This document shows positions 49,399-52,460 of a stretch of 64,000 nt of DNA, one piece after another. The notes beneath the pieces are model-generated. The model was not told the DNA's origin and did not search any database. It saw only the letters and a program-made list of their open reading frames with translations. A program made the translations under genes and the position numbers. Positions within the stretch are counted from its first letter, which is position 1, and every line of letters starts with the position of its first letter. Source of the DNA: Magnetococcales bacterium WMHbin3 (GTDB lineage Bacteria; Pseudomonadota; Magnetococcia; Magnetococcales; Magnetaquicoccaceae); assembly GCA_002753185.1 (NCBI GenBank), contig PDZX01000009.1, positions 1-64,000 of the forward strand, given 5' to 3'.

Positions 49399-49881
49399 CT
49401 ATCGGCACTCCTCCGCCAGGCAGATCAATTCGATCCCGGCATGCTCGGCGATCACGCGGGAACGTTCGTCGGGATAGGGACCGCCGAAGATCACCCGTCT
49501 GATCCCCACGTTGGCCAGCATCCCCATGCAGGAAGCGCAGGGCTGGCAGGTGACGTAGACCACGGATCCCTCCAGGGGGACTCCGTGGCGGGCGGCGTTG
49601 GCCACCCCGTTGGCCTCGGCGTGGGCGCAGACGCACAGGTCCAGTCCTTGTCCGCTGGGCAGACCCGCCACTCGGCGTGCGCAGATATCGGGATGGGGAT
49701 AACCGCTCGGCACCCCGTTGAAGCCGGTGGCCAGCAGTCGTTTGTCCCGCACGAAGACCGCGCCCACCTTGCGGCCCGATGCGCAGGTGCTCATTTGGGC
49801 GGCCAGATGGGCGGCGTCCATCCAGTGGCGATCCCAACTCGGACGGCCAACCGGAACCGGGGTGGAAGATTCCATCGTCAT
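49399..49881 (-). CDS. dCMP deaminase family protein (ComEB-like)
   Basis: The 160-aa zinc enzyme shows the cytidine/deoxycytidylate deaminase signature: HAEANGVANAA with the zinc His and catalytic Glu, and the PCASCMG segment (PCxxC) with two zinc cysteines. The N-terminal STCASGRKVGAVFVRD and the FNGVPSGYPH segment are typical of the ComEB/dCMP deaminase group. It supplies dUMP for thymidylate synthesis. AGGAG lies 9 nt before ATG 49881. It is convergent with the chemoreceptor gene. Confidence 0.92.
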   Translation of the reverse strand: MTMESSTPVPVGRPSWDRHWMDAAHLAAQMSTCASGRKVGAVFVRDKRLLATGFNGVPSGYPHPDICARRVAGLPSGQGLDLCVCAHAEANGVANAARHGVPLEGSVVYVTCQPCASCMGMLANVGIRRVIFGGPYPDERSRVIAEHAGIELICLAEECR

Positions 49882-49929
49882 GGTGTCACGCTCCTAAAAA
49901 CCGCATCCAGTTTGGACGCCAAGGTTCCA

Positions 49930-49978
49930 AATTATTAGGGGTCCAGGGGGATTATCCCCCTGGTGGGATCCAAGGGCG
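49930..49978 (+). repeat. Left terminal inverted repeat
   Basis: The outer 38 bp, beginning AATTATTAGGGGTCCAGGGG, are the exact reverse complement of 50384-50421. The remaining 11 bp match with a few mismatches. The repeat itself contains a self-complementary CCAGGGGGATTATCCCCCTGG-type core. Confidence 0.9.
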
Positions 49979-50012
49979 TGAGCACTTGGTGGGATCCAAG
50001 GGCGTGAGTCCT
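49961..50012 (+). repeat. 26-bp tandem direct repeat, two units
   Basis: Bases 49961-49986 and 49987-50012 share tggtgggatccaagggcgtg and differ in only a few bases near the unit end (agcact against agtcct). The first unit overlaps the inner part of the left terminal repeat, suggesting local duplication of the element's edge. Confidence 0.9.
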
Positions 50013-50037
50013 TGGTACCCAGCGCGCTTTATCAAAA

Positions 50038-50072
50038 GCTTTTTTTCGCGCGCCTTTTGCGCGAAAAAAAGC
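50038..50072. repeat. Hairpin 1 of 4 (14-bp stem, loop GCCTTTT)
   Basis: GCTTTTTTTCGCGC pairs perfectly with GCGCGAAAAAAAGC around a seven-base loop GCCTTTT. An outer AGCGCGC pairing may extend the structure. Confidence 0.9.
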
Positions 50073-50114
50073 GCAGCGCGCCTCAAATCACTCGGTTTGT
50101 ACGAGTGCGCCTTG

Positions 50115-50171
50115 GCAGGCCCGCTTCCTTGTTTTTCGCGCCTTTTGCGAAAAACAAGGAAGCGGGCCTGC
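50115..50171. repeat. Hairpin 2 of 4 (25-bp perfect stem, loop GCCTTTT)
   Basis: The arms 50115-50139 and 50147-50171 are perfect reverse complements, starting GCAGGCCCGCTTCC, around a seven-base loop GCCTTTT identical to that of hairpin 1. Confidence 0.92.
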
Positions 50172-50200
50172 GTATTGCCCAACGGGCTTGAATGCATTAT

Positions 50201-50255
50201 GCAGGCTCTCTTTTTTTCGTTTCCAAAAGGCGGAAACAAAAAAAAGAGAGCCTGC
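50201..50255. repeat. Hairpin 3 of 4 (24-bp stem with one mismatch, loop AAAAGGC)
   Basis: The arms start GCAGGCTCTC and end GAGAGCCTGC, with one C/T difference. The loop AAAAGGC is the reverse complement of the loop of hairpins 1 and 2, so this hairpin is in the opposite orientation. Confidence 0.92.
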
Positions 50256-50271
50256 GAAGGCGGCGCGCGGC

Positions 50272-50304
50272 GCTTTTTTCGCGCAAAAGGCACGCGAAAA
50301 AAGC
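50272..50304. repeat. Hairpin 4 of 4 (12-bp stem, loop CAAAAGGCA)
   Basis: GCTTTTTTCGCG pairs with CGCGAAAAAAGC around CAAAAGGCA. Stem and loop mirror hairpin 1 in reverse orientation, giving the whole element an overall dyad symmetry. Confidence 0.9.
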
Positions 50305-50324
50305 TTCTTGAGAAGAGCGCGCTG

Positions 50325-50360
50325 AAAAGCAAAAGTCAAAAGCAAAAGTCAAAAGCAAAA
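50325..50360 (+). repeat. 13-bp tandem repeat, 2.8 units
   Basis: The unit aaaagcaaaagtc occurs at 50325-50337 and 50338-50350, followed by a partial copy to 50360. It lies between hairpin 4 and the right terminal repeat. Confidence 0.88.
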
Positions 50361-50372
50361 CCCCAAGGGCTT

Positions 50373-50421
50373 CGCCCCTGGACCCCACCAGGGGGATAAT
50401 CCCCCTGGACCCCTAATAATT
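50373..50421 (-). repeat. Right terminal inverted repeat
   Basis: This is the reverse-complement partner of 49930-49978, perfect over 50384-50421. It ends 10 nt before the lnt stop codon, so it may also act as the 3' structure of the lnt transcript. Confidence 0.9.
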
Positions 50422-50431
50422 AAAAACGAAA

Positions 50432-51991
50432 TCAAGCACTCTTGCGTGTCAATGCCAGACCGACCAGGCACAGCCCCAGCCACAACCAGATCCAATAACG
50501 CCCGGTGCGCACCCAAACACTCTGGCCGGTGCCACGGGTCACGGTTCGCTCCAATACCCCCTTCTGGTTCGGATCGATACGCCCCAATTCCCGACCCAAA
50601 TGATCGAACATCGCCGAAATCCCGGTGTTGGCCACCCGAATCATGGGCAACCGGTTCTCCACGGCCCGCATGCGCGCCATGGCCAAGTGCTGCGGCTTGG
50701 CCGACTCGCCGAACCAGGCGTCGTTGGTGACGTTGATCAGCCAACGCGCACCCCGCACCGCCAACAAACGCACCTCGTCGGGAAAAATCACCTCATAGCA
50801 AATCAACGCCCCGATCGCCCCATGCCCCCACGCCATCGGCTCAGGCTCACCGCCACGGGAAAAATCCTTGGTGCCATGGGTCAATTTTTGCAGATTACCA
50901 GGCAGCAATGCCCGAAATGGAATATACTCTCCAAACGGCACCAGGTGATCCTTGTCGTAGCGATTCCGGAACTCTCCCTTCTCTTCGGCATCAACCATGA
51001 CCATACTATTAAAATACAACCACTCCTTGCTCCCCTCGGACTCACGATCCGCCATGGGTGCGCCGGTGAGGATCGGCGCCCCCAACCCCCGGCTCGCATC
51101 CGCGATCCGCCGCAACTCGCGCGGCGCGGCTTGCAAAAAAAAGGCCGCCGCCGTCTCCGGCCAGACCACCAGATCCACCGGATTGGCCAGATCGGCCAAA
51201 AGATCCAGATAACGCCGCAACCCCTCCTCCTGATGGGCCGGGTCCCATTTCATCTTCTGGGGGATATTGCCCTGCACGATGGCCATGCGTACCGGAGCGG
51301 CCCAGATGTCCCGTTCGATCCCCTCCCGCAGCCCGGCCAGCCGCCACTGCCCATAGAACCACCCACCCCCCAGCGTCCCGGCGGCCAACCCGATCACCAC
51401 GAACCAGGAAACCCGCTGCCGCCACTCTGCGGGCCGCGCCAATACCGCCACCAGTGCCGCGCAAAACAGGATCAGCCAAGAGAGCAAATACACCCCACCC
51501 AGATCCGCCACCTGAAGCATGGTCAACGACCCGTCCCAGGCATACCCGGCCAGATTCCAGGGAAAACCGCTCAACAGATGGGCGCGCAGCCATTCGGTGA
51601 CCACCCACAACGCCGGGGCGGCCAACGGCAACAGCCAGGGCCGGCCGGCCAGACGCGGCAACACCGCCCCGAACAGGGCCGGATAAAGCGCCAGGATCGC
51701 CGCCAGCCCCAGCATCAACCCGATCGCTGCCGGCGCAGGCAATCCGCCGAAGGTGTGCAGGCTGTTCCACAGCCACGCCTGCCCCAGGCTGAAATGGCCC
51801 AACCCGAAACAAAACCCCAGCCACGCCCCCCGGCGCGGGGCAGCGGTCTCCACCAGCCGTATCAACACCGCCAGGCCAACGATCATCGGCAGGGGCAAGG
51901 GATCCGGGGGCAGCCCCAATACGGCCACCATCCCGGCCAGCAGCGCCCCCAACGCCTCCCGGTCCCGCCAGGATGCGACCCGCTCAGCCAT
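50432..51991 (-). CDS. lnt: Apolipoprotein N-acyltransferase
   Basis: Lnt adds the third acyl chain to the N-terminal cysteine of lipoproteins in the inner membrane, from phosphatidylethanolamine. The 519-aa protein has about six N-terminal membrane helices (about 8-205) and a nitrilase-like periplasmic domain (about 215-490) with the catalytic triad: Glu in VWPETAAAF, Lys in QKMKWDP and Cys in LICYEVIF. NVTNDAWFG completes the family signature. ATG 51991 overlaps the 3' end of ybeY by 8 bp. The presence of Lnt fits the lipoproteins found elsewhere in the window. Confidence 0.95.
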   Translation of the reverse strand: MAERVASWRDREALGALLAGMVAVLGLPPDPLPLPMIVGLAVLIRLVETAAPRRGAWLGFCFGLGHFSLGQAWLWNSLHTFGGLPAPAAIGLMLGLAAILALYPALFGAVLPRLAGRPWLLPLAAPALWVVTEWLRAHLLSGFPWNLAGYAWDGSLTMLQVADLGGVYLLSWLILFCAALVAVLARPAEWRQRVSWFVVIGLAAGTLGGGWFYGQWRLAGLREGIERDIWAAPVRMAIVQGNIPQKMKWDPAHQEEGLRRYLDLLADLANPVDLVVWPETAAAFFLQAAPRELRRIADASRGLGAPILTGAPMADRESEGSKEWLYFNSMVMVDAEEKGEFRNRYDKDHLVPFGEYIPFRALLPGNLQKLTHGTKDFSRGGEPEPMAWGHGAIGALICYEVIFPDEVRLLAVRGARWLINVTNDAWFGESAKPQHLAMARMRAVENRLPMIRVANTGISAMFDHLGRELGRIDPNQKGVLERTVTRGTGQSVWVRTGRYWIWLWLGLCLVGLALTRKSA

Positions 51992-52460
51992 AGGGATCCG
52001 CGATGCCGAGACCGGCCAAAATCGCGATCTCCCGCGCTTCCTGCCGCTCGGCTTCGGCCTCGGAGCGCTCGTGATCATACCTCAGCAGGTGCAACACCCC
52101 ATGCACCACCAGATGGATCAACCGCGCCTCCAGGGTGACGCCCGCCTCGCCGGCCTCGGCCAGGGTGGTCTCGTGGGGAATCACCACATCGCCCAACAAC
52201 ACCGGTCCCTCGTCCGTGTCCGGGAAGGCATCGCCGTCGTCCATGGCGAACGACAGGACATTGGCCGGACGATCCAGGCCGCGATGCCGCCGGTTGAGTT
52301 CCCGCGAGTGCTCGTCGTTGGTCAGGAGGATGCCGACTTCCACCTCCTCGCCAAGCCCTCGGCCCTCGGCCTCCAGGGTGGCGCGAACCGCCCTGGCGAC
52401 CTGTTCCTCAACCTCGCCCCAGCGGGGAGAGTAAAGATTTACCAGAACTGTTGCCGGCAT
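51984..52460 (-). CDS. ybeY: rRNA maturation endoribonuclease YbeY
   Basis: YbeY is a zinc-dependent endoribonuclease acting in 16S rRNA 3' processing and ribosome quality control. The 158-aa protein carries the signature HGVLHLLRYDH, the three zinc histidines of the HxxxHxxxxxH motif, and LTNDEHSRELNRRHRG upstream, followed by TNVLSF-like NVLSFAM. ATG 52460 lies inside the 3' end of the pgpH-like gene (53-bp overlap), and its stop overlaps lnt. The phoH-ybeY-lnt order is the usual one except for the inserted HD gene. Confidence 0.94.
   Translation of the reverse strand: MPATVLVNLYSPRWGEVEEQVARAVRATLEAEGRGLGEEVEVGILLTNDEHSRELNRRHRGLDRPANVLSFAMDDGDAFPDTDEGPVLLGDVVIPHETTLAEAGEAGVTLEARLIHLVVHGVLHLLRYDHERSEAEAERQEAREIAILAGLGIADPYG

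Follow-up and report, generated by a model that had tools for sequence, protein, structure and literature searches.

Several described systems resemble the element reported here. Bacterial MITEs, of which Correia and NEMIS elements are examples, carry perfect terminal inverted repeats, lack a gene, and are present or absent between relatives. A long-standing question is whether the compensatory changes seen in stems reflect selection on RNA or arise as single events in DNA. REPINs and BIMEs, which are hairpin-forming REP doublets, are extragenic and mosaic, occur in many copies, possess inverted palindromic end units, and show compensatory changes in their hairpins, as reported in the part of PMC3116915 considered here. 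For RNA stems, the sections of PMC8794818 considered here propose template switching, which yields multi-base changes in both arms of stems that are kept paired; there, 78.5% of the two-step changes involved a G-U or U-G pair, whereas 61.0% of instantaneous changes were of a type that could pass through G-U/U-G.

The element occupies positions 49930–50421 of the window, the whole 64,000-nucleotide stretch of Magnetococcales bacterium WMHbin3 DNA that was analysed (Table 1). It shares the listed features of bacterial MITEs but differs in its ordered internal hairpins, with no target-site duplication recognised and no parent insertion sequence found. It likewise shares those of REPINs and BIMEs but is 460–528 bp long and contains four to five ordered hairpins with a recurring loop type, with no Y1 match in its host genome (G000) and its ends absent from the fetched Y1 loci. 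Unlike the hairpins in the considered sections of PMC8794818, it is mobile, lies between genes in many copies and shows mirrored indels, and the comparison is among paralogues; loop inversion, another template-switching footprint, was not noticed in the elements listed. Searches of open PMC papers brought up no account of the repeat, and the part of PMC12791574 considered here names insertion sequences and no such repeat.

Table 1. Features of the element and its surroundings, in window coordinates
Feature	Position	Strand	Remark
Flanking gene, cytidine/deoxycytidylate deaminase family	49399–49881	-	PF00383, E 2.5e-24
Outer motif CAGTTTGGACG	49908–49918	+	11 bp outside left end; inside the stretch missing from the empty site
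Left terminal inverted repeat AATTATTAGGGG...	49930–49967	+	38 bp, perfect; aligned with other copies
End palindrome CCAGGGGG-ATTAT-CCCCCTGG	49943–49963		REP-like
Two 26-bp palindromic units	49961–50012	+	Unit number differs among family members
H1 module	50022–50081	+	GCGCGC outer stem, 5' bulge, H1 hairpin 50038–50072
Small hairpin CACTCG-GTTTGTA-CGAGTG	50089–50107	+	6 bp, 7-nt loop; absent from the preliminary description
H2	50115–50171	+	25-bp perfect stem, loop GCCTTTT 50140–50146; distal stem hypervariable, covarying
Dyad centre	50172–50200		Fast-changing, 154/768 = 0.20 per site
H3	50201–50255	+	24-position stem, one C-A mismatch, loop AAAAGGC 50225–50231
H4 module (inverted H1)	50263–50322	-	Loop AAAAGGC 50285–50291
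Three 13-bp A-rich direct repeats	50325–50363	+	Between H4 and right end
Right terminal inverted repeat	50384–50421	-	38 bp, perfect
Right end palindrome copy	50388–50408
Flanking gene, apolipoprotein N-acyltransferase (lnt)	50432–52078	-

The preliminary description recognised perfect terminal inverted repeats, four strong hairpins with loops GCCTTTT (H1, H2) and AAAAGGC (H3, H4), and an overall dyad symmetry, and all of these stand. The two ends are exact reverse complements within an extended inverted repeat of 49 nt (96%), and the dyad identity of 354/535 aligned columns (0.66) exceeds the values of 50 mononucleotide shuffles (mean 0.46, maximum 0.50). The H1 hairpin has 14 bp and its loop at 50052–50058; the H4 hairpin (50272–50304) has 12 pairs plus one mismatch adjoining the loop. 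The description's remark that the stems are unlike is only partly true: H4 is in essence an inverted H1, with 37-nt H1 and H4 pieces that are exact reverse complements in copies L003 and L004, and in the window copy H2 and H3 have a GCAGGC outer stem in common. Because of these two relations and the dyad symmetry, its alternative suggestion, an ancestral unit duplicated in both orientations, gains support.

Each element end has its own palindrome, and matches to an end alone are common in relatives. A motif near CAGTTTGGAAT is found at 8 of 33 element ends, starting 26–49 bases before the matched end, as against 1% of shuffled flanks, and the insert can extend past the inverted repeat. The apical class of the small hairpin, CACTCG, accounts for 8/204 hairpins in a sample selected on loop type. 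Open reading frames inside the element run through its repeats and look spurious. Folded as single-stranded DNA, positions 50010–50330 reach a predicted −138.8 kcal/mol compared with −69.4 ± 4.0 for 100 dinucleotide shuffles, not one of which folds as low (z −17.5), and the other (−) strand folded as RNA gives a z of −17.1 against shuffles. In the predicted single-stranded DNA fold of the (+) strand, H1 and H4 form one long stem, while H2, H3, and the 50089–50107 hairpin protrude as arms.

A search of the genome and its relatives for the ends and hairpins reveals a repeat family, and not the single occurrence that the preliminary description regarded as contrary to its reading. The host genome (4.6 Mb, 157 contigs) contains 72 matches, including eight near full-length copies of 460–528 bp at 81–100% identity, besides partial copies, several of which stop at contig ends. 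In the eight aligned copies the layout comprises a AATTATTAGGGGTCC end with its palindrome, 26-bp palindromic units in varying number, the H1 module, a spacer, and H2, followed by the centre, H3, the H4 module, units, and an end; copy L006 has one end that deviates from this arrangement.

Some copies have been interrupted. In L011 (start of G000:C74) and L233 (G000:C148), H3 is broken by an ISL3-like sequence with GGCTCTTCAGACGG ends. The two interruptions are probably one copy, to judge from the letters at both contig ends, which show it beside CTTTTTTT. In two other copies (approximately L010:1760 and L020:1705) an inner hairpin is interrupted by a sequence beginning GTAACTA.

The family is distributed across much of the order. 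Of 60 stretches with the exact H2 core, 55 are Magnetococcales by title (records of the host's own genome possibly left out), and when two mismatches at most are allowed, the core pattern is present in 11/41 genomes. R1, a covariance model built from 13 H1-module sequences (24 distinct modules were found in 31 loci), matches H1/H4 modules in 28 of the order's 48 genomes, representing 8 of 17 genera, leaving 20 genomes without a match in a search whose output warns that weak matches may be lost. R1 matches number 34 in the host genome, 117 in G008, and 97 in G006. The relative G001 has no R1 match, yet its contigs run into element ends and, at L249 and L024, into H4/H1-type sequence, so an R1 count of zero can reflect assembly breaks; all genomes compared are drafts. 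Nine loci of the metagenome-assembled genomes DCbin2 and nWRX3bin6 comprise six with both ends and the same part order (one with an N stretch, one with H3 and H4 fused), two with one half, and one at a contig end. No match to the element was found in viral contigs (searched with an exact 23-mer pattern), plasmids, or phages. Outside the order, single Firmicutes hairpins in an Oscillospiraceae member (L149) and Desulfosporosinus (L160) possess the exact core TTTTTCGCGCTTTTTGCGAAAAA with similar flanks (GTGGAGA...TACTAC), and single core matches also occur in Collimonas (L154), Sarcina (L173), and an uncultured proteobacterium (L195).

Comparison with G001, the closest relative by lnt identity (93%), indicates mobility. 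In G001 the lnt stop overlaps the deaminase start (ATGA) with no element between, while in the host 548 bp (49895–50442) replace 9 bases of the G001 sequence and lnt ends five codons earlier. Twenty host loci were compared with G001, the window copy (L001) through lnt and 19 by flank pieces, and three (L011, L014, L020) gave no hit. Among the 17 orthologous sites, four are empty with contiguous flanks (L001, L003, L004, L005), ten have the same end at the same place (L006, L008, L009, L010, L012, L013, L017, L018, L019, L022), and three are undecided (L002 and L007 at contig ends, L015 where the flank changes at the element). The element is a mobile, non-autonomous interspersed repeat that comes and goes between the genes of Magnetococcales (magnetic cocci).

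Some elements also coincide with differences in gene order. In G010, left and right element halves flank a SpoU-family (trmL-like) gene (L119, G010:C2:163080-164010) and aroE (L265, G010:C10:58874-60122), and in G006 element halves flank an open reading frame without a Pfam match (L135, G006:C111). The old neighbours kept by the trmL-like gene and aroE speak against capture of these genes as cargo: dsbA adjoins trmL in 3/10 loci (L311, L316, L317) and nif3 adjoins aroE in six of nine other loci (L324, L328–L332; not L325–L327; fragment L333 left out); gene-order changes at elements fit better. The flanks of the G005 element L103 (G005:C31:17600-19200) map to two different G010 contigs (L266, L270), in both cases at an element, and past aroE the 3' flanks of G010 and G005 no longer agree. 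Collinearity is kept at other element sites (L104/L116, L114/L122, L102/L124, L108/L266). Gene-order change at the repeat is a lead and not a statistic.

From identical loops on diverging stems, the preliminary description argued that the loop is what is selected. The recurrence of a loop type in the genus agrees with this, but its letters are not fixed, and conservation extends to the apical stem. The H3 loop of the window copy, AAAAGGC, is a minority form found in one of ten copies, with AAAAAGC in eight and AAAAAAC in one. Among 24 CGTTTCC hairpins read in one orientation, the loops are GCTTTTT (12), GTTTTTT (6), GGTTTTT (4), GCCTTTT (1), and GACTTTT (1), and in the TTTTTCGC class the loop GCCTTTT occurs in 47/112. 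By these sequences, a loop type (G-N-N-TTT-N) is kept, rather than one loop. The hairpin samples do not prove loop length, because one required 7-nt loops and the other was selected on loop type. In G008, five of nine four-hairpin elements (L084, L088, L098, L100, and the first of L101) have 7-base loops throughout in the orientation left-left-right-right, and the remaining four include some loop of four to six bases.

The hairpin arms differ in how they evolve. In comparisons among the eight full copies, with gap cells set aside, the 5' and 3' distal arms of H2 each differ at 90/350 sites (~0.26 substitutions/site). The H1 region, the most conserved of those compared, differs at only 7/1708, the spacer at 24/883, and the H2 apical stem and loop at 12/701 (0.004–0.03 per site). 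Corresponding counts are 43/392 for the H3 distal 5' arm, 14/560 for the H3 apical stem and loop, 43/1916 for the H4 region, and 48/868 and 34/651 for the element ends. The inner stems change ~5 to 60 times faster than other compared parts, the centre excepted, yet remain paired.

Differences between copies are concerted across the two arms. The H2 alignment (11 copies, 10 distinct rows) contains 26 pairs, of which 9 changed on both sides, 16 are invariant, and one changed on one side only; all 251 cells are paired. The one-sided pair is the outermost, a G-U in 3 rows and the sole G-U in the H2 and H3 alignments. Double-changed cells number 21 in H2, compared with 5.0 ± 1.9 in 500 shuffles that do not remove relatedness, and sliding the partners leaves 0 to 3; further pair types number 13 against 9.9, a value reached by 9/500 such shuffles. 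The H3 alignment (10 copies, 8 distinct) has 5 of 24 pairs double-changed and 170/171 cells paired, all but the C-A of the window copy, with no excess of further pair types over shuffles (286/500 as high). Both H2 and H3 display the stem covariation expected of structured RNA. Transversion-type swaps, for which a single G-U pair offers no passage, occur in six of the nine H2 pairs that covary; the other three are transition-type only. Three indels are mirrored: two bases are missing from both arms in L002, one is gained in both arms in L007–L010, and the window H3 gains three bases in both arms, giving three extra pairs relative to other copies.

A wider sample extends this pattern. It contains 54 hairpins (24 + 10 + 13 + 7) with four apical stems from fetched loci, a 7-nt loop being required. 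Of 432 distal cells, 417 are Watson-Crick, 5 G-T, 6 A-C, and 4 other, with hairpins not oriented to transcription, and the 50 hairpins whose first six distal pairs are all Watson-Crick include 36 distinct distal arms.

The reading favoured here, at a probability of roughly 0.55, is that of a REPIN/MITE-like, non-autonomous repeat in which each hairpin arm can serve as the DNA template for rewriting the other, probably through template switching during replication. The element is a large inverted repeat with REP-like palindromic ends, a conserved H1 module and its inverted partner H4, and inner hairpins H2 and H3. Replication template switching within such a quasi-palindrome could copy one arm from the other in single events, which would keep stems paired while their letters change fast. 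If arms are copied in single events, one expects two-sided changes with hardly any one-sided state, together with mirrored indels and transversion swaps, and this is the pattern observed. Template switching that preserves RNA stems (PMC8794818) and the compensatory changes of REPIN hairpins (PMC3116915) are precedents. The ends, H1/H4, apical stems, and loop type may serve as recognition parts for a putative transposition enzyme, possibly acting on single-stranded DNA.

Several observations count against this reading. Neither a partner transposase nor a clear target-site duplication came to light. The H1 and H4 stems hardly vary, though copying should act there too; their near-invariance would be best explained by selection on their sequence. 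Only 19/112 hairpins of a fifth apical class, TTTTTCGC, have six paired distal positions, many of the class being short-stemmed H1/H4. Fast change need not come from copying, because the centre, which lies outside long stems, changes nearly as fast, which shows rapid change to be a general property of the element's middle. Selection for folded RNA or single-stranded DNA would also purge unpaired variants. The arms compared belong to paralogous copies, and the G001 contigs stop near the ends of elements in common.

The rival readings are not exclusive of one another. A classical MITE, in which an insertion sequence bearing the same ends gave rise to the element by deletion, its hairpins are transposase binding sites, and selection on DNA binding keeps the stems, is unlikely, although the preliminary description named this class and the element has its form: perfect inverted ends without a protein-coding gene, many copies, and empty sites in a relative. 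No partner transposase was found, and an autonomous transposon with the same ends was not seen in the stretches read. At the four clean empty G001 sites no target-site duplication was recognised, where flanks have diverged and the insert exceeds the inverted repeat. Weak evidence against this origin comes from the ends-only or degenerate host copies read (L229–L233), which are too short for a gene between two ends, single-ended, or run off the contig.

That the hairpins act in a transcript, as an operon spacer, terminator, or 3'-end signal whose pairing compensatory selection keeps, is rather doubtful, and is compatible with mobility. Strong H2/H3 covariation and a fold z of about −17 speak for it. 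So do co-directional gene neighbours here and at the Amidase_2/Mur ligase and def/fmt copies (three copies Pfam-checked), and the five terminator-like sites in 49850–50500 compared with 1.8 ± 1.3 in shuffles, four on the strand of both genes, along with one promoter-like site. Against a role as RNA, G-U is confined to 3/10 rows at one H2 pair, G-T and A-C are equally rare in the wider, transcription-unoriented sample, many swaps are of transversion type, and the indels are mirrored. No Rfam model matches 49400–51000 at its gathering score; among 35 weak hits up to E 5, 27 are microRNA models fitted to the long hairpins. The structured RNA decoy of the preliminary description found no evidence in its favour.

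It is improbable that the end palindromes are REPs in inverted pairs moved by a Y1 REP-associated transposase. The element does carry two REP-like palindromes in inverted arrangement, G005 and G010 contain at least 14 ends-only inverted pairs of 129–158 bp (by our own pairing), Y1_Tnp genes are present in 15 of 20 relatives searched, and the compensatory changes cited above from part of PMC3116915 offer a precedent. The host genome, 93.1% complete, has no Y1_Tnp match, however, and the element is far larger than a REPIN. Ten stretches covering 12 of the 25 Y1 matches listed, several of them cut by contig ends and three holding other short hairpins, contain no end-like palindrome and no such 7-nt-loop hairpin. 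A RAYT gene bordered by the same REPs was not found, either in the host or through any link in the stretches read from relatives, and Y1/RAYT was rejected as the mover. The ends-only pairs themselves are REPIN-like, lack the inner hairpins, and match query positions 3–44 or so. Separately, a hairpin CCCCCGGC-NNN-GCCGGGGG lies beside Y1 transposase genes in two species (L343, G005:C80; L344, G008:C21); it is a possible REP of those genes and is unlike the element's ends.

More speculatively, and with little probability attached, arm copying could be part of a mobile single-stranded DNA device with a long H1-H4 stem and H2/H3 side arms. A putative enzyme would read the loop type and apical stems, each copying round would prime one arm from the other so that distal stems are rewritten yet stay paired, and recombination between copies would also shift gene borders. 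Least probable is that distal stems differ through recombination of whole hairpins between copies, for although some element positions coincide with gene-order changes between relatives, 10/11 H2 rows are distinct, several apart by one or two mirrored changes, and new paired arms would still require a source.

For the study of hairpin evolution, the family offers a natural test case for how pairing is maintained in DNA hairpins: a conserved stem inside the same element serves as control, and copies are many, given the R1 counts of the host genome and of G008. It also carries a caution, that covariation in a bacterial intergenic repeat alone does not prove RNA. For Magnetococcales genomics, the repeat marks many contig breaks and some gene-order changes.
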